This document shows, one piece after another, positions 9,020 through 35,379 of a stretch of 35,604 nt of DNA (position 1 is the stretch's first letter; every line of letters begins with the position of its first letter). Source of the DNA: an uncultured Chlorobiaceae bacterium (GTDB lineage: Bacteria > Bacteroidota > Chlorobiia > Chlorobiales > Chlorobiaceae); the NCBI GenBank assembly GCA_903920215.1, contig CAIXLG010000097.1, positions 1 to 35,604 of the forward strand, given 5' to 3'. Below the pieces are notes generated by a model. That model was not told the origin of the DNA. It ran no database searches and was given only the letters and a program-made list of their open reading frames with translations. The translations under genes and the position numbers were made by a program.

Positions 9020-11155
9020 TTACTTTGAATTTACATAATTCCATTTAAAGACTGATCGTGTTAAAAAGAGAGCCTGACTGTCCACTTTCGGTTCACCATT
9101 AGTAATCTTTGCGTATAAGCCATCAGGGTTCATTTCCCAGGCCTTGACGTTATCGCTTAAAATAAGATCAAGATCCGATTTGACAACCCCAATAAGCGAT
9201 TTGTTAAACACAGGAAAAAGGGTTTCCACCCGATCATCGAGGTTTCTCGGCATGATATCGGCACTGCCGAGATAAAGTTCTTCCTTCCCTCCGTTATGAA
9301 AATAGTATGCTCGGCTGTGTTCAAGAAAACGGCCAATAACGCTGATAACGCGGATATGCTCGCTTATCCCGGGAATTCCAGGTTTCAGGCAGCAAATGCC
9401 TCGCACTATAAGGTCTATCTGGACACCTTCACAGGAGGCTCTGTAGAGTGCCCGGATGGTTTTTGGATCCACAAGGGCATTCATTTTCATGATTATGCTA
9501 CCTTTCCCTTCCTTTTTGCACCACTCAACTTCACGTTCAATCATCTCGATAATCCGCTTTCGGGTGTTGATGGGCGAAACAAGCAGTTTTTTATACTCGG
9601 TATGTTTTGAATATCCGGTCAAGGCGTTGAAGAGTTCCGAAACTTCGTTGGCAAGCTGTTCGTTTACAATAAAAAGACTGTAGTCAGTATAGATTTTTCC
9701 GGTCGCAGGGTTGTAGTTTCCGGTACCGAGATGCAGATAGCGCTTTAGTTTCTTTTGTTCACGACGAACGACCAGGGTCAACTTAGCATGGGTTTTCAGA
9801 CCAGGCAGACCGTAGGAAACATGCACCCCCACATCCTCAAGAGCACGTGCCCAGACTATATTGTTCTCTTCGTCAAACCGAGCCTTGAGCTCCACAAGAA
9901 CTGCAACCTGTTTGCCATCTTCAGCAGCATTCATCAATGCCTGAACAATCGGTGAATTACTTCCGACCCGGTAGAGAGTCTGCTTTATGGAAAGAACATC
10001 AGGATCAGCCGCAGCCTGGTTTATAAAATCAACGACCGGCTGAAACGAGTCGTAGGGATGGTAGAGGAGCTGATCTTTAGCCCTTATAGCACTGAAAATA
10101 TCACCACTGAACTGTTCTTCAATCAGATTTTTTGGCACAAATGGCTCATCTTTCAAGGTCGGCCGTTCAATTTTCAAAAGGTCAATGAGACAACTAAGCC
10201 CAAGCGCTCCATCTATTTCATAAACGTTTCTTTTGGCAACATCAAGATTTTTCATGAGCAGTTTTCTTACCGACTGAGGCATTGCAGGCGTAATGTCAAG
10301 ACGGACAACTTTGCCGTAACGGCGTGACCGCAGTCCCTGCTCAATGGTCTTCAGGAGATCGCCTGCTTCATCTTCCTCGATTTCAATATCAGCATCACGA
10401 ATCAACCTGAACAGATGCGACCTGGTAATCCTCATCTTCGGAAAAAGGTGCGACAAATTGTGTTCAATAAGGTCTTCAAGCCAGATAAAGCGGATGATAC
10501 CGTCATCATCATTGAAACCCTTTATATTATTAAGTCTAAGAAGCCGCGGAAGAATGCTCGGGACCTTCACGCGGGCAAACTTGAGCGAGCCGTGTTCCTC
10601 ATCTTCCAGTTCAATGGCGAGGTTCAGCGACAGGTTCGACATGAAAGGAAATGGATGGCCCGTATCGAATGCCAGTGGAGTAAGCACAGGATAGATCTCT
10701 TTCCGGAAAAAATGACTCAACGCCCTCTGCTTCGTTGCTGAAAGTTCAGATACCTTAAGCAACTCAACATCCTCCTTTTTCAAAGCAGGCAGAAGGTCGT
10801 GATAAAAACACTCATAACTCTCGGTGAGCTGTCGCAAAACCATCGTGCGGATCTTTTCGAGCTGTTCAGCAGGAGTAAGCCCATCGATTGTTCGATCTTG
10901 AAGGCCAGCCTCATACTGATCCTCAATACCCGCAACCCGGATCATAAAGTATTCATCGAGGTTTGAGCTGAAAATCGAGATAAACTTCACCCGTTCCAGA
11001 AGCGGGTGCGCTTCAGGATCAAGCGCTTCCTCAAGTACCCTCTGATTGAAATCAATCCAGCTCAACTCCCTGTTGACATACAGGGAAGTATCAAAAAAAT
11101 TCAACTCTGGTACCGGTGCAGATATCTTTCCTTTTTTTTCTATCAATGTCAGCAT
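9020..11155 (-). CDS. ppk: polyphosphate kinase 1
   Basis: This 711-residue PPK1 reversibly transfers the ATP gamma-phosphate to inorganic polyphosphate. The domain order is an N-terminal helical domain ([16 protein letters not shown] near 29-44), a head domain, and two phospholipase-D-like C domains. His456 in GLKTHAKL matches the autophosphorylated His of the family, and HLGTGNYNP (about 475-483) follows. A second His lies in [15 protein letters not shown] near 600. The length is typical. It starts 16 bp after the cyclo-ligase stop and runs into rpiB, making one operon. Polyphosphate granules are common in green sulfur bacteria, which fits. No clear Shine-Dalgarno is seen. Confidence 0.97.
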
Positions 11156-11171
11156 ATGCGATTACAAATAT

Positions 11172-28638: not shown

Positions 28639-30093
28639 TTATTCCGGAATTAACCACCAGAACGGATAGCCCTTTGCTTTATGGAAAAAGAGGTAGTGCA
28701 AAATTACTTTCAGCCAATGTCCTGCAAGGCCGGCCTCTCCAACAGAGTAGTTCATATCACGACCCCATTCAGGATACGTTTTCCAGTCAGGCACAACAGG
28801 GAAGAGAGTCATTGAAGCACCAAGGCCATCAAACGAACCAAACCCTGCCGATACAATACAGGCGGCACCCATTTTGCTCATTGATGCCTTATGGCGATGC
28901 TCTGTTGCTCCCTGGATCTTTTCAGAAATATTAAGCGCAACAATTTTTCCCATAACACCGGACGGCATGCCTGTACGAGGCGGAGTTGGAAAAATCTGTC
29001 GACCGCTCGGACTTGTCATTGGTTTCGAAATCGGATGCGGAGGGGCAAAGGCAATACCTGGTGCGTAGATGTTTTTGAAAAGAGGGTTTTGATAAATCGA
29101 GGGCCAATCTTCAGCTTCCCAATCCTCAAAGGCCTTCGGCGTGTAATCTGCATCAACCTTCATGAACTTGTTTGGCGCAAACATCTTGTCGGTGATCTCC
29201 GCTCCGCTCTTATCGAAAGCGGTCAGCCCGACGCCTGAAAATGAGGGAATAAGCATGGCAAAATCAAACTCCTGCGTCAACTCTTCGCCGGCAAGTGTCT
29301 CGTAGTGAGCTTTGCCTGGTTCAACGTTGTGAACTCCAGCACGACGGATCCAGTTAATGCCGTACTCGGCCATAATAGATTCAGTAAAGACCTTCGTCGG
29401 GGTTGAGTAGCCGCCTCTGTTAATAAATGCGCCTCCCATGCCGAAATCACCCAATTCATACTCATTGGACAACCAGGTAATCTGAGCCTTATCGCTAAGA
29501 CCGCGTTTTGAGATTTCATAGGCCACATTCAGGATGTATTCAAAGGCCGCTCCCTGACAGGTCGACATAGCGTGACCAGTGCCGATCAAAATACGCTGCT
29601 TGTGACCGGCCTGCATCTTTTTGATATTATCCTGAAGGTGTTCCCATGCATGGGCGGCATGGCTGTAGGTGCAAACCGAAAAGCTGTTTTTATCGGGACC
29701 AAGACCCTCAGTTGCCTCAAAATTCAGTTTCGGACCGGTTGCATTGACAAGATAATCATAGTCGACTTTTTCGGTCTGACCGTTTCGAATCCCATCGGTA
29801 TACTCAATCGTCACATACCCTTTTTTGATTTCACCATCACCTTCCGGATGTATTTCCAGGGCTTTTGCCTGTTTAAGAACAATGCCCCAGCGGTTATACA
29901 CTTTTTTGAGTTCAAACCGTACATCGTCAATAGACATCTGGCCCACGCCGACCCAGATATTTGATGGAATCCACTGGTAATAACTGTTCGGGGTAACAAC
30001 AACGACTTCATGCTGTTTACCAAGATTCTTTTTTAGAAAAGATGCAGCGGTATGTCCTGCAACTCCGCCTCCTAAAACGACGACTTTTGCCAT
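28639..30093 (-). CDS. sqr: sulfide:quinone reductase (SQR/FCSD flavoprotein family)
   Basis: This 484-residue FAD protein of the SQR group oxidises sulfide and passes electrons to the quinone pool, the likely electron source for anoxygenic photosynthesis here. The FAD-binding VVVLGGGVAGHTAA is at 4-17, and the second nucleotide region YLVNATGPKLNFEA is at 114-127. Three cysteines fit the redox-active set: Cys141 (SVCTYSHA), Cys179 (MSTCQGAAFEY) and Cys412 (GAACIVSAGFG). The C-terminus (about 455-484) is aromatic and amphipathic (HWLKVILHYLFFHKAKG), suited to monotopic membrane attachment. Its length exceeds the ~430-residue type I enzymes, so it may be one of the other SQR types known in green sulfur bacteria. 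Confidence 0.93.
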   Translation of the reverse strand: MAKVVVLGGGVAGHTAASFLKKNLGKQHEVVVVTPNSYYQWIPSNIWVGVGQMSIDDVRFELKKVYNRWGIVLKQAKALEIHPEGDGEIKKGYVTIEYTDGIRNGQTEKVDYDYLVNATGPKLNFEATEGLGPDKNSFSVCTYSHAAHAWEHLQDNIKKMQAGHKQRILIGTGHAMSTCQGAAFEYILNVAYEISKRGLSDKAQITWLSNEYELGDFGMGGAFINRGGYSTPTKVFTESIMAEYGINWIRRAGVHNVEPGKAHYETLAGEELTQEFDFAMLIPSFSGVGLTAFDKSGAEITDKMFAPNKFMKVDADYTPKAFEDWEAEDWPSIYQNPLFKNIYAPGIAFAPPHPISKPMTSPSGRQIFPTPPRTGMPSGVMGKIVALNISEKIQGATEHRHKASMSKMGAACIVSAGFGSFDGLGASMTLFPVVPDWKTYPEWGRDMNYSVGEAGLAGHWLKVILHYLFFHKAKGYPFWWLIPE

Positions 30094-30193
30094 AGAGAGT
30101 CAAAGTTTGAAATTGCACTCTAACGAAAAATAAAACTATATGACTATTTAGTTATTTAAAGATTAACGTGCAATAGCAAATTTTATTTTTGAC

Positions 30194-30219
30194 AGATCCC
30201 TCCTTTGTCGGGATGACAA
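30194..30219 (-). repeat. R1 dispersed repeat (CAAAG variant)
   Basis: AGATCCCTC-CTTTG-TCGGGATGACAA is the reverse complement of the unit at 23614-23640. A degenerate GGAATGACAAAAG follows at 30230. It lies between hcp and sqr. Confidence 0.8.
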
Positions 30220-30278
30220 GGGAGGGGGCGGAATGACAAAAGAAGTACCAACAAAAAAACTACTGGAAAATGGTATGT

Positions 30279-31907
30279 TCAGGCACCCACCATCATGGCT
30301 TCGATATCAGCATCAACGGTACCAATCGGCATGATGCCGAATTTTTCGACCAGAACGGCGGCGACATTCGGTGTCAGAAACTCGGGAAGTGTTGGTCCGA
30401 GGCGAATGCCTTTTACCCCTAAATAGAGCAGAGCGAGCAGCACGGTAACGGCTTTCTGCTCGTACCATGCAATATCAAAGGAGATCGGCAGATCGTTGAT
30501 ATCCTCAAGAGCAAATACTTCTTTCAGTTTGAGGGCAATCACTGCAAGCGAATAGGAGTCGTTGCACTGACCGGCATCAAGCACGCGGGGTATGCCGCCA
30601 ATGTCACCAAGCTCGAGCTTGTTATAGCGGTACTTGGCACATCCCGCTGTAAGGATAACGGTGTTATCGGGAAGTGCGGCAGCAACGTCGGTATAGTATT
30701 TGCGTGATGCATGACGTCCGTCACAGCCGGCCATAACGATAAACCGCTTTATTGCACCCGACTTTACTGCATCGACTACTTTGTCGGCGAGTGCAATCAC
30801 CTGATGGTGTGCAAAGCCGCCAGTGATGGTGCCGTTTTCAATCTCTTTTGGTGGCGGGCAGCTCTGGGCAAGTTTGATAAGCATTGAAAAGTCCTTCTGC
30901 TCTTCGTGGTGCCGTGCCGGAATATGCCTCAGTCCGGGATAGCCGGCCATGCCTGTTGTAAACATGCGGTTGCGATAGCTTTCGCGCACAGGGACTATGC
31001 AGTTTGTGGTCATGAGTATGGGGCCGTTGAAGGTGTCGAACTCTTTGTCCTGCATCCACCATGAACCGCCATAGTTTCCAACAAAGTGAGGGTACTTCTT
31101 GAACGCCGGATAGTAGTGTGCAGGGAGCATCTCGCAGTGCGTGTAAACATCCACTCCCGTTCCGGCTGTCTGCTTCAAGAGGTCCTCCATATCGCGAAGA
31201 TCATGGCCTGAAATCAGGATGCCGGGGTTTTTACCCACCCCTGTCTTCACTGTGGTGATTTCTGGATGGCCATAGGTGCTTGTGTTGGCTTTGTCAAGCA
31301 GTGCCATTGCCTTGACTGCAACTCCACCGGTCTCAAGCACAAGTGCGGTCAGTTCGTCTGCCGACAGCTCTTTGGTGAGCGCTGCAAGCCCTTTTACATA
31401 AAAAGCATAGATATCGTCATCATGATAATCGAGCACTGCTGCATGATCTGTATAGGCAGCAAGTCCCTTCAGACCGAAAAGCACAAGGCTTTTAAGAGAG
31501 CACAGGTCAACATTCTCACTCAAGCTCTCAAGACCGACTTCAAGAGCTTTCGAAAGAAAATCCTCTTTTGAACTTCCAGTCCATTGAGCGGCATCATGAT
31601 GCGGCTGATGAGCGAGCGTAGTATTCAGTTCATCGCGCACTGCAAGGGTCTTGCGTATCTGGGCGACTATTGCATCCTCATCAAAGTTGGTGTTGGTTAC
31701 TGTAACAAAGAGTGATTCGCTGATAAGCTGGCCAACCTTCCTTGAAACACTGCCCTCCATTTTTTCTGCAACCAGAGCAAGCCCTTCTGTAGCATACACC
31801 AGCACATCCTGAAGCTGGGCAGTAGGTTCATCTTTCCCGCATACCCCCCGCACAGTACACCCTGTACCATGAATACTTTCCTCACATTGATTACATAACA
31901 TTCCCAT
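30279..31907 (-). CDS. hcp: hybrid-cluster protein (hydroxylamine/NO reductase type)
   Basis: This 542-residue prismane protein reduces hydroxylamine in vitro and is tied to NO detoxification in vivo. The N-terminal cluster ligands are Cys5, Cys8, Cys17 and Cys23 (C-x2-C-x8-C-x5-C). Hybrid-cluster regions include [66 protein letters not shown] and [12 protein letters not shown]. The frame extends to a TTG at 31955, but GGAGG lies 8 bases before the ATG at 31907 and the Cys motif starts there. Neighbours rrf2 and the Fe-S protein on the same strand support a nitrosative-stress role. Confidence 0.96.
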
Positions 31908-31955
31908 CGTTCTTTCCTCCATTATTGGTTTATTTAAAGAAAGTGCCGAGTACAA

Positions 31956-32110
31956 TCAGTTGGCAATCAGCAGTTGGCAGTGGGCAGAGGATAAGACGAG
32001 AGCGTTGAAAATTGCCAACTGCCCACTCTCTTGCCTTCACTCAGCACTCAGCACTCAGAACTCAGCACTATTTCTCTCCCCTCTTCACTGCCCACTGCTA
32101 ACTCAGTACT
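31956..32110. repeat. composite R2 repeat block between hcp and the TPR gene
   Basis: The left arm is CAATCAGCAGTTGGCAGTGGGCAG type (31956-31987). An inverted arm, GCCAACTGCCCACT, lies at 32013-32027. CTCAGCACT units fill 32040-32069, and CACTGCCCACTGCTAACTCAG lies at 32087-32107. It overlaps the 3' end of the TPR coding sequence. Confidence 0.85.
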
Positions 32111-32377
32111 TCTCTTTCTATCCTCCGCTGCTCCTTCGAAATCACCACTTTTCACCCTTGCTATACCGCGGTTACCATAAGTCGCAATAGCTTCACGGAA
32201 ACGCAGGCCTATTTTCAATGCCATCGTGAAATCAGCTATTGCGCCATTATAATCATCGCAACTGCTCCGGGCATTTCCCCGATCGTAGTAGGCCTCTGCA
32301 TTGCCAGGATGTTCAGCAATAACCCGGCTGATTTCTATTGCTGTCCCCCTGTAACCACCCATAGCATCTTTCAGCAT
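32048..32377 (-). CDS. small TPR protein with repeat-derived C-terminus
   Basis: This is a product of 109 residues. Two tetratricopeptide units are visible: GNAEAYYDRGNARSSCDDYN with GAIADFTMALKIG (about 25-58), and REAIATYGNRGIARVKSGDF with EGAAEDRKRS (about 61-92). They suggest a protein-interaction module. The ATG at 32377 has AGGA 8 bases upstream. From about residue 90 to the stop, the codons lie wholly within the R2 repeat tract (32048-32110), so the original C-terminus was probably lost and the frame now ends in repeat DNA. It lies between the Fe-S gene and hcp on the same strand. Function unknown. Confidence 0.65.
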   Translation of the reverse strand: MLKDAMGGYRGTAIEISRVIAEHPGNAEAYYDRGNARSSCDDYNGAIADFTMALKIGLRFREAIATYGNRGIARVKSGDFEGAAEDRKRSTELAVGSEEGREIVLSSEC

Positions 32378-32465
32378 CACATCTTTCCTGTTATTTTTTT
32401 ATAACAAAATTCAAGCCGCATAAGTGCTAAGGCTCAAGTTCCGAGTTCTTCGAATGGAGCAAGAT

Positions 32466-32557
32466 AGATCCCTCACTGCGTTTCGGGATGACAAGGAGAG
32501 AACTGCCAACTGTTTTCAATTTGTTACCTCAGCACTCAGCACTCGTCCCTCAGCACT
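32466..32557. repeat. R1 (AACGCAGT variant) plus R2 tract
   Basis: The R1 unit at 32466-32494 is the exact 29-bp reverse complement of the unit at 35422-35450. R2 fragments follow: AACTGCCAACTG (32501-32512) and CTCAGCACT units (32528-32557). The tract ends just before the stop codon of the Fe-S gene. Confidence 0.85.
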
Positions 32558-32561
32558 TCTT

Positions 32562-33455
32562 TCAAACCCACTCTTCCGACAACGTCTCGCCCTGCAGACT
32601 GATAACCACCTTTTTCACCGGCACCTTACGCTTGGCCTTTCGCAAGGCTTCGGCCACAATCGACATCAGTCCGCCACAGCATGGCACCTCCATAATGGCT
32701 ACGGTAATGGTGTTGATGTGCGACAGGTCAATCATGGCTGCCAGTTTGTCGACATACATATCCATATCCGAATCAAGCTTCGGGCAGGCTATTGCAAGAC
32801 TTTTCCCCTTCATGAAAGAACCATGGAAGTCACCGACAGCAAATGCGCAACAGTCGGCTGCAAGCAGGAGATCAGACCCTTCGAAATAGGGTGCCTGCGG
32901 TGAAACAAGGTGAAGCTGGATGGGCCACTGGCGGAGTGCGCTTTCGGCTGGTGCACCAGCCATAGCGACAACTGCTGCTTCTGATTTGCCATTGGCACTG
33001 AAATCTATAGTCCTGCTGCCTGGGCATCCTCCAGCGTGCGGTGCATGACTGTGGGCCGTATGAGAATGTTGCACTTCAGGTATTTTTGCAGGTTCACTCT
33101 CAAGAGGGTTCGCAATTCCCTGCTCCTCGAGATATTCAAGCGCCTGCTGCACAAAATCGCGCTGGCCGTGATCCATAAGGTGATGCAGATGGGCCGCTAT
33201 TACATTTTGCCCGCCTTTCGCAATACTCTCATGCATGACGCGCTTTTCGTCGTAGGGTTCAGCTTCACGGGTTTCAATCTTCATGGCACCTGTTGGACAG
33301 TGACCTATACAGGCTCCAAGACCGTCGCAAAAAAGGTCGCTGATGAGACGGGCTTTGCCGTCAATCACCTGCAGCGCTCCCTCGGGACAACCAGGAATGC
33401 AGTCTCCACAACCGGTACATCTTTTTTCATCTATAGTGATAATCTGACGTTTCAT
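32562..33455 (-). CDS. Cys-rich 4Fe-4S ferredoxin-type protein with His-rich linker
   Basis: This is a 297-residue protein. The N-terminal ferredoxin domain has a complete CTGCGDCIPGCP motif (Cys13, 16, 19, 23). A second motif, CDGLGACIGHCP (Cys43, 49, 53), has Leu46 where a fourth Cys is usual. A His-rich linker (HSHTAHSHAPHAGGCPGS, about 130-147) leads to a C-terminal domain with further Cys: AADCCAFAVGDFHGSF, AIACPKLD and MEVPCCGGLMS. The family is common beside hcp and rrf2 in anaerobes and probably passes electrons or binds metal; the exact role is unknown. AGGAG lies 6 bases before the ATG, and the gene begins 27 bp after rrf2, so the two form an operon. Confidence 0.88.
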   Translation of the reverse strand: MKRQIITIDEKRCTGCGDCIPGCPEGALQVIDGKARLISDLFCDGLGACIGHCPTGAMKIETREAEPYDEKRVMHESIAKGGQNVIAAHLHHLMDHGQRDFVQQALEYLEEQGIANPLESEPAKIPEVQHSHTAHSHAPHAGGCPGSRTIDFSANGKSEAAVVAMAGAPAESALRQWPIQLHLVSPQAPYFEGSDLLLAADCCAFAVGDFHGSFMKGKSLAIACPKLDSDMDMYVDKLAAMIDLSHINTITVAIMEVPCCGGLMSIVAEALRKAKRKVPVKKVVISLQGETLSEEWV

Positions 33456-33482
33456 CTATTACTCCTTTTTCCAGGTTCAATT

Positions 33483-33929
33483 TCAGCTGATTGTTGCTGC
33501 TGTTGGATTCACTTTATTTGCCGCTTCAAGGTCACGAAGCAGCTTCCCTATGGTCACCTTTTCAAACTCGCTCTGAACGACCGACTCAATACGCATTATT
33601 TCGTGACGCAGAACACAGTTCGCACGATTGCCGCAAATCTGCTTGCGGAACATGCACTCCGATACCTGAACCTTGCCCTGAAAAATCTCAATCAGTTGCG
33701 TAACGGTGATCTCATCCGGATCCTTTTGCATCATAAACCCGCCCTGAACTCCCTCTTTTGAAACAATCAGATTGTGGCGGATCATCTCCTGGAGCAAGCG
33801 TCGAAGAAACTGGTAAGGGATATCGTGCTCAGTCGCAATACTCTTTGCCGACAGATAACTCCCCTTCCTTGCAGCCAGCGCCAGCAGGGCTCGTATAGCG
33901 TAATCCGTATTCTTGGTCAGTACTTTCAT
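33483..33929 (-). CDS. Rrf2-family Fe-S transcriptional regulator
   Basis: This 148-residue Rrf2 protein starts MKVLTKNTDYAIRALLALA, the standard family N-terminus; the longer open frame to 34058 is outside the family and lies over the promoter. The winged helix includes KSIATEHDIPYQFLRRLLQEM (recognition region) and VQGGFMMQKDPDEITV (wing). The sensor segment has Cys-x6-Cys-x5-Cys (CMFRKQICGNRANC), the spacing class that binds a 2Fe-2S or 4Fe-4S cluster in IscR, NsrR and RsrR. Next to hcp, an NO or redox sensor is the best guess. A 19-bp palindrome covers its predicted -10 box, suggesting autorepression. Confidence 0.92.
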   Translation of the reverse strand: MKVLTKNTDYAIRALLALAARKGSYLSAKSIATEHDIPYQFLRRLLQEMIRHNLIVSKEGVQGGFMMQKDPDEITVTQLIEIFQGKVQVSECMFRKQICGNRANCVLRHEIMRIESVVQSEFEKVTIGKLLRDLEAANKVNPTAATIS

Positions 33930-33944
33930 AGTTGTTCGTTTAAT

Positions 33945-33963
33945 TGATACTAATATAGTATCA
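33945..33963. promoter_or_regulatory. 19-bp palindromic operator upstream of rrf2
   Basis: TGATACTA-ATA-TAGTATCA has perfect 8-bp arms around a 3-bp centre, located 16 bp before the rrf2 ATG. Rrf2 regulators bind such dyads. I found no second copy upstream of the Fe-S gene or hcp, so the downstream genes are either read through or controlled by a variant site. Confidence 0.75.
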
Positions 33964-33979
33964 GATGAGAATAAAGCAA
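33952..33979 (-). promoter_or_regulatory. predicted sigma-70-type promoter of rrf2
   Basis: On the minus strand a TTGCTT -35 box (33974-33979) and a TATATT -10 box (33952-33957) are separated by 16 bp. The -10 box lies in the centre of the 19-bp palindrome, so bound regulator would block it. The leader would be only about 15-20 nt. Confidence 0.5.
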
Positions 33980-34149
33980 TATTATTTTTTAATAATTCCC
34001 ACATGGAAGGATTTTGTCTCAGAGATTGCAAGAGAATGGATAGTTGCGTTACATTCAATAAATTTGGTTTAGTTTTTAGTGGGATACCTTACCCATTTGA
34101 ATACAATGGGTAACTCTCCATAACCCTATACAAGAGAAGAGAAGTAACA

Positions 34150-35379
34150 ATGGCATTCGAAATTGACCCTGGATTATTTGAGAACGCGCAATGCAAAGGA
34201 ATATCCATCAAAATCGTTGGTGTCGGCGGTTGCGGTTGCAATGCGTTGAACACTATGATTGAGTATGAAATAAGTGGGGTTGAATATATCGCGTTCAATA
34301 CGAAGCCTCAGGAGCTTCTGAATTCCAACGCTCCGATCAGGGTGAGAATCGGTAAAAATGCTGGAAATGGAATTGAACTTCCAGCTGCTTTTGTAAAAGG
34401 CCCTTTAAACAATCCTCTCTTTGCTGAAGAAGACCGCCAGCATATTGCAGCTCAACTGCATGGAGCAGATATAGTCATTATTGCTGCAGGAATGGGCAAA
34501 GATACAGGATCCATGGCAGCCCCGTTGATTGCCCTGATTGCAAGAAATATGGGCATCCTCACGCTTGGGCTGGTAACGAAGCCGTTCACCTGCGAAGGGA
34601 AAATGAAAGCGAAAACAGCTGAAGAGGGTATCAGTGAGCTGCGCAAATACATCGATACGCTCATCCTTGTCGATAATGAGCAAATCATGAGCGGTGCTGA
34701 GGAGAACACGACCGTCAATGAGGCCTTCAATCTGGCAAACGATGTCATGTACAGGGCCGCGAAAGGGATTGCCGACATTCTTAACAGCCGGGGCCATATC
34801 AATGTCAACTTCGGAGATGTCTCGGGCCTTATGACCAATGCGGGTGACGCGGTTATCGGTACTGCTGCTGCGTCAGGTGAACGACGCGCCCTTAAGGCGG
34901 CAACAGATGCATTCAACAATATTCAGATGGAAGGCGTAGTTGTGCATGGTGCCACCGGAGTTCTGGTCAACATTACCGGAGAGGTGACCATGAGGGATAT
35001 GACTGAGGCTATGACCTATATCGAGGAGCAGGTAGGCAGTGAAACCAATATTATCAATGGCTACATAGGCGATGCAAGCCTATCGGGCGAAACAAGGGTT
35101 ACGATTATTGTCACTGGCTTCAAACGAAATAAGAGTGATGAACCGATGCCCCAGATCCGGGAAACCTGCGACATCGGCTATGGAACTCATGCATCTCCAT
35201 CTATTGATTTTTCAATACCGGCCTATATCCGTAGACATACATTGAACAGTGATGGCGAGCCTCTTGAACATAATCCGTTGCCTCAGACCAAGGTAGAATT
35301 GCGAGCGGATAGAATTCAAAAAGGTTTGACAGATACTCCGGCATATCTCCGAAGAATGAAAGAAGGAAACACTGATTAA
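34150..35379 (+). CDS. divergent FtsZ-family protein (probable second FtsZ)
   Basis: This 409-residue tubulin/FtsZ-fold protein aligns along the whole FtsZ core. T1 reads GVGGCGCNALNTM (24-36), where typical FtsZ has all glycines. The T4 signature reads AAGMGKDTGSMAAP (112-125) instead of GGGTGTG. T6/H7 is preserved (NEAFNLANDVMYRAAKGIAD, 190-209). The T7 catalytic loop reads NVNFGDV (218-224), with Asn220 for the usual first Asp but Asp223 kept. The tail carries two FtsZ-like end peptides, SIPAYIRR (355-362) and DTPAYLRR (395-402). No cell-wall cluster gene is adjacent. It could be a regulatory or GTPase-weak partner of a canonical FtsZ. It is divergent from rrf2. Confidence 0.9.
   Translation: MAFEIDPGLFENAQCKGISIKIVGVGGCGCNALNTMIEYEISGVEYIAFNTKPQELLNSNAPIRVRIGKNAGNGIELPAAFVKGPLNNPLFAEEDRQHIAAQLHGADIVIIAAGMGKDTGSMAAPLIALIARNMGILTLGLVTKPFTCEGKMKAKTAEEGISELRKYIDTLILVDNEQIMSGAEENTTVNEAFNLANDVMYRAAKGIADILNSRGHINVNFGDVSGLMTNAGDAVIGTAAASGERRALKAATDAFNNIQMEGVVVHGATGVLVNITGEVTMRDMTEAMTYIEEQVGSETNIINGYIGDASLSGETRVTIIVTGFKRNKSDEPMPQIRETCDIGYGTHASPSIDFSIPAYIRRHTLNSDGEPLEHNPLPQTKVELRADRIQKGLTDTPAYLRRMKEGNTD

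Follow-up and report, generated by a model that had tools for sequence, protein, structure and literature searches.

A conserved FtsZ paralogue with an altered GTPase site in the Chlorobiaceae, and a linked FtsA duplicate

The usual view is that bacterial FtsZ requires both aspartates of its T7 loop; second FtsZ copies are also found in plastids and other bacteria. In Staphylococcus aureus FtsZ, the attacking water is held by two aspartates of the upper subunit, D210 and D213, together with G72 from the lower one (PMC8936486). Assembly is suppressed by either of the substitutions D46A and D210N, and the crystal structure of the D210N protein (PDB 7oja) shows a displaced T7 loop without its K+ and a rearranged T3 (PMC8936486). 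The D209A mutant of E. coli FtsZ aggregates in yeast, where the FtsZ of the archaeon Nitrosopumilus maritimus, a natural protein with an altered GTP-binding motif and T7 loop, shows no polymerisation (PMC3684127). Odinarchaeota carry two FtsZ paralogues in one cell, FtsZ1 and FtsZ2, and both keep the two signature motifs, the T4 motif being defined there as GGGTG[T/S]G (PMC12583498). Makarova and Koonin described FtsZ-like families that lie outside the division cluster and are highly diverged from FtsZ, one of them in operons with VWA proteins (PMC2875224). In the literature searched, we found no report of green sulfur bacteria with an additional FtsZ or FtsA.

We analysed a window of 35,604 nucleotides (the whole stretch of DNA considered here), which forms contig 97 in a Chlorobiaceae assembly of 228 contigs and 3.04 Mb with an estimated completeness of 99.7%. 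On its forward strand, the intact frame at 34150-35379 encodes a 409-residue FtsZ paralogue, here called FtsZ-P, and the locus has the following features (supporting evidence in brackets):

34049..34072, + strand: upstream element TTACATTCA(A/G)TA(A/C)ATTTGGTTTAG, also written TTACATTCA(A/G)TA(A/C)ATTTG (upstream-region alignment)
34150..35379, + strand: ftsZ-P, catalysis-altered FtsZ paralogue, 409 aa, ATG start (profile matches, orthologues, model)
34219..34242, + strand: T1 loop, residues 24-31, GVGGCGCN (alignment)
34297..34311, + strand: T2 loop, N50-T-K-P-Q54 (B. subtilis alignment, residue table)
34360..34392, + strand: T3 loop, residues 71-81, GLGAG motif lost (alignment, residue table, model)
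34495..34515, + strand: T4 loop, residues 116-122, GKDTGSM (GKGTGTG in canonical Chlorobiaceae FtsZ)
34801..34818, + strand: T7 loop, residues 218-223, NVNFGD (residue table)
35218..35235, + strand: inner tail motif PAYIRR, residues 357-362 (this or a near form in 11/11 orthologues and 30/30 canonical proteins)
35338..35355, + strand: end peptide PAYLRR, residues 397-402 (this or a near form in 10/11 orthologues and 30/30 canonical proteins)

A preliminary description of the locus had called the product an FtsZ paralogue with an intact frame, and this is confirmed. Pfam matches to Tubulin (1.3e-30) and FtsZ_C (8.3e-17) were obtained, a PDB sequence search matches FtsZ (2e-65), and the NCBIfam ftsZ match has an E-value of 5.6e-81, although its 272.6 bits fall below the equivalog cut-off of 295.2 bits. 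The FtsZ profile match extends over the full length, and the predicted fold is that of FtsZ: an AlphaFold2 model built from an alignment of 32 family members (mean pLDDT 75, pTM 0.72) is confident in the core and of low confidence at the N-terminus, the T3 loop (71-81) and the tail linker, and all 50 PDB matches listed by Foldseek, 7oja among them, are FtsZ.

The same genome contains a canonical ftsZ on contig 135, directly after ftsA (PF14450) in a division gene cluster that also includes an ftsW-family gene, so that the separate canonical gene for which the preliminary description proposed a search is indeed present. FtsZ-P resembles canonical Chlorobiaceae FtsZ in its start, fold, two tail motifs, K117 and C28, with 62% identity in a genome search, but differs in lying outside the division cluster, in the changes D210 to N and G30 to C, in the loss of the T3 motif with an insertion, and in the loss of T4 glycines. 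A third ftsZ match, at the start of contig 218 (positions 2-367, 82% identity), was considered as a further or tandem copy and rejected; its downstream flank is the same as the window contig end (88% over the overlap), and it is therefore most likely a strain allele of the ftsZ-P locus.

Rather than ftsA, ftsZ-P adjoins Rrf2, Fe-S and Hcp-type genes. Upstream lie genes for a pyridine-nucleotide-disulphide oxidoreductase resembling sulfide:quinone reductase, an Hcp-type protein, a TPR protein, an Fe-S protein and an Rrf2 regulator, and downstream are genes for a 77-aa protein, a PAS kinase, an HTH protein and RmuC; these flanking genes, in part or whole, are common to most members of the window clade. 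The divergently oriented neighbours at window positions 28639-34058 (Rrf2, Fe-S, TPR, Hcp-type prismane and sulfide:quinone-reductase-like proteins) suggest a nitrosative or sulfur stress locus. The partly conserved element at 34049-34072 recurs ahead of most orthologues, including those with other upstream genes, and is a possible promoter of ftsZ-P. No VWA gene was found among the neighbours, in contrast to one of the families of Makarova and Koonin (PMC2875224), from which FtsZ-P also differs in that its core matches canonical FtsZ models and the protein shares 62% identity with the local FtsZ.

An FtsZ match was found in 85 of 86 family genomes, and the window type, at no less than 71% identity, in 11 of the 86, the window genome included; more diverged FtsZ paralogues occur in a further set. 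Named records at least 70% identical to FtsZ-P are all metagenome-assembled genomes labelled Chlorobiaceae or Chlorobium. The window clade has support of 96/86 and branches in broad agreement with the canonical FtsZ tree, most loci are syntenic, and the 11 orthologous frames share one start position and are intact, with one shortened at its end. Pairwise Nei-Gojobori dN/dS (omega) is 0.06-0.15 for the FtsZ-P core (residues 1-326), 0.2-0.6 for its tail and 0.01-0.15 for canonical FtsZ. By these values, FtsZ-P is faster-evolving than canonical FtsZ, yet clearly constrained; the constraint covers helix H7 and the C-terminal domain, and the earlier proposal that the protein is under selection is upheld. 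The gene ftsZ-P is an old FtsZ paralogue, mostly vertically kept under purifying selection, and the view of the preliminary description that a non-canonical FtsZ exists beside the normal one is well supported, with orthologues conserved in 11 genomes. A horizontal or phage origin was rejected, since both synteny and the tree favour vertical inheritance, and no relatives were confirmed in viral contigs. Two further candidate associations were rejected: SEDS counts did not differ clearly enough to suggest that the window clade has an FtsW partner of its own, and gas vesicles, considered as a marker of net formation, occur in 4/11 genomes of the clade versus 19/75 others (p 0.47). Gas vesicles are weakly associated with having any paralogue (p 0.019, kinship not corrected).

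To compare catalytic residues, numbering was taken from an alignment to B. subtilis FtsZ, which agrees with the S. aureus residue numbers used in PMC8936486, and a residue table was compiled for the 11 orthologues, 30 canonical Chlorobiota FtsZ, 9 more diverged paralogues and the canonical-like duplicates. The preliminary description had proposed an altered GTPase site, and this holds most strongly at T7, where its reading of Asn220 in place of the first catalytic aspartate (D210) is confirmed in 11/11 orthologues, whereas 30/30 canonical proteins have D there; the T7 sequence NVNFGD thus departs from NxDxx[D/E], while D213 is kept as Asp223 in all orthologues. D210 is absent from all 20 diverged paralogues (the 11 orthologues plus the 9 more diverged, in which it is N, S or G and D213 is kept), whereas the canonical-like duplicates of genomes G090, G025 and G083 retain it. 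Two other positions are replaced in most orthologues. The equivalent of S. aureus D46 is Lys52 in FtsZ-P, changed in 10/11 orthologues (K6 E3 A1 D1; D in 30/30 canonical proteins), and G72, changed in 8/11, is Pro78 within a T3 loop where an insertion follows the motif and the model is of low confidence. These T2 and T3 changes, the latter with loss of GAG, were missed by the preliminary description, as were the ftsA partner and the wider paralogue clade.

At T4 and T1, the letters first reported are correct, but only part of their interpretation stands. GKDTGSM does not fit GGGTG[T/S]G; its Lys117, however, is not particular to the paralogue, as the local canonical FtsZ also has K at the second place and 28/30 canonical proteins carry it, and Asp118 and Met122 are not conserved, since position 118 is D7 G2 N1 S1 and position 122 is M7 T2 N1 I1 across the 11 orthologues. 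In terms of S. aureus residues, G108 is changed in 9/11 and G112 in 11/11. Of the two T1 cysteines, Cys30 (G30 in canonical FtsZ, where Cys is absent) is fixed in the window clade, while Cys28 is standard in canonical Chlorobiaceae FtsZ. By contrast with these changes, the equivalents of N44, Q48, T109, G110, E139, N166, F183, N208 and D213 are kept in 11/11 orthologues, and E149, N176, F193 and N197 of FtsZ-P are kept among them. With its guanine- and ribose-side residues kept, the guanine-side pocket is, as read from the alignment, intact. By analogy with the behaviour of the D46A, D210N and D209A mutants, ordinary GTP-driven self-assembly of FtsZ-P is unlikely, and nucleotide binding may persist.

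The two PAY-RR tail peptides were likewise read correctly, but they are not specific to the paralogue. PAYLRR is the usual FtsZ C-terminal peptide, of the FtsA type, and both peptides or near forms occur in 30/30 canonical Chlorobiota FtsZ examined, so the suggestion that two end peptides confer a special ability to engage two partners is unsupported. The orthologue of G089 is without the last peptide.

A second FtsA, first visible in some genomes by a Pfam FtsA scan, bears on the origin of the paralogue. By protein search, this FtsA2 is present in 8/86 genomes, seven with the window-type paralogue plus G090, and is thus confined to genomes with FtsZ-P or its G090 relative (Fisher p 9e-9, kinship not corrected). 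FtsA2 is monophyletic (100/100) with G090 at its base, and in G090 an ftsZ copy lies directly after ftsA2 (L045:6817-9325). That copy is placed at the base of the paralogue clade at 95/90, or 76/90 without distant outgroups, although an alternative placement was not rejected (p-AU 0.205). Taken together, the adjacency in G090, the FtsA2 clade and the position of the G090 FtsZ copy indicate that a single ftsA-ftsZ pair was probably duplicated and that the copies later separated in most lineages. The FtsZ of the G090 pair keeps its catalytic aspartates and is without the last PAYLRR peptide.

FtsA2 is absent from the window genome and, by our searches, from G009 as well; therefore, the FtsZ-P/FtsA2 pair is not obligatory. 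The window genome has the whole ftsA2 site on a single contig, but ftsA2 itself has been deleted. What is left is a scar of roughly 18 codons from its 3' end (GVAWKKVVDGLQDWCVKL), which lie ahead of recQ and continue the reading frame of the upstream cupin gene (fusion at L181:2540-3055, contig 40). These residual codons encode the presumed membrane-binding helix of FtsA. The absence of ftsA2 is uninformative in two further genomes: in G104 a contig end lies close by and the recQ match begins only at residue 56, and G088, which is 88% complete, yielded no close recQ match.

Other FtsZ copies in the family were also noted. The more diverged paralogue clade lies in recurring clusters (L050:8119-12768, L049:6288-13727, L052:3998-11082 and L056:8015-11156) that also encode an additional FtsW/RodA-family member and, depending on the cluster, proteins of DUF3298 and DUF2085 and one with a VWA-looking C-terminal part and no Pfam match; this looks like a second, separate division-related module. 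The diverged paralogue of G033 (L056:8611-9738 and 9909-11156) looks damaged, with part of the T4 region missing and its FtsW neighbour split, and that of G021 is divided over two contig ends (L054 and L055). In G083 (L048:8422-9687) and G025 (L047:7753-9150), an apparently independent ftsZ duplicate retains its GTPase motifs.

Compared with the described systems, FtsZ-P carries, at the aligned position, the substitution of S. aureus D210N; the latter, however, is a laboratory mutant that did not assemble (PMC8936486), whereas FtsZ-P is natural, conserved and further changed in T2, T3 and T4. It shares a naturally altered GTP-binding motif and T7 with the archaeal N. maritimus protein (PMC3684127), but keeps D213 and the N of NxD and coexists with a canonical FtsZ. 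Two paralogues in one cell recall Odinarchaeota (PMC12583498), although FtsZ-P has lost both signature motifs and in the Chlorobiaceae FtsA is duplicated as well.

The loss of a key catalytic residue and the probable origin from a duplicated pair favour a role as altered partner or regulator of the division ring over one as ring-builder in its own right, and we give about an even chance to a reading in which FtsZ-P, its catalysis altered, acts on the canonical ring as a modulator tethered through FtsA-type proteins. The suggestion of the preliminary description that it copolymerises with, or poisons, the normal FtsZ stays a conjecture. After duplication of the ftsA-ftsZ pair, FtsZ-P would have lost its assembly-driven GTPase switch and would now serve as a subunit, or a regulator, that hydrolyses GTP poorly or not at all. 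It might reach the division site via FtsA2 where this is kept, and via canonical FtsA in the window genome, and would there alter how canonical FtsZ filaments turn over or where they are placed. Against this reading, a D210N-type protein with T2 and T3 changes might be unable to bind canonical FtsZ end to end.

Alternatively, FtsZ-P could form its own stable filament with little dependence on GTP hydrolysis, serving cell shape or positioning and not constriction, through compensating interface changes such as Lys52 standing in for the bound cation. The strong constraint across the whole core and the FtsZ-like fold of the modelled core are in keeping with this, but single changes at D210 or D46 suppress S. 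aureus assembly (PMC8936486), and position 52 varies (K, E, A, D), so the lysine-for-cation swap cannot be general; we consider this filament unlikely. A non-polymerising decoy, whose two tail peptides compete for FtsA or other tail-binding partners and so restrain division, would explain why the peptides are kept while both longitudinal faces are altered; it seems rather doubtful, given that the tail linker is the fastest-changing part and the core is conserved, the reverse of what a tail-only decoy predicts, and that the G089 orthologue does without the last peptide. That FtsZ-P is an ordinary GTP-hydrolysing second ring protein, like those of archaeal and plastid FtsZ pairs, has to be weighed because D213 (Asp223) and the guanine-side residues are conserved, but it is improbable with GGGTG[T/S]G and NxDxx[D/E] both broken and with D210N suppressing S. 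aureus assembly (PMC8936486). A decaying duplicate heading for loss, as the deleted ftsA2 and the patchy distribution of ftsZ-P could suggest, is very improbable in view of the low core omega and the frames maintained in 11 genomes.

Ternary fission is assigned to Pelodictyon nets. Its occurrence in the family is noted in PMC8232776, and in a more speculative reading, attractive but one to which we give little credence, FtsZ-P and FtsA2 would form a dedicated second division or branching module in some Chlorobium, with a hydrolysis-dead FtsZ marking or holding open a division plane; such a module could underlie the ternary fission branching of net-forming Pelodictyon (Chlorobium clathratiforme) cells. 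The genome collections searched yielded no reference genome of a net-forming species. Overall, many species that have retained a normal FtsZ also carry a naturally fixed FtsZ of the D210N type under strong selection, and the linked FtsA duplicate records its history. The paralogue offers a natural experiment on the capabilities of FtsZ once its normal catalytic site is gone, and a concrete candidate for study in a group whose division is known to be unusual.
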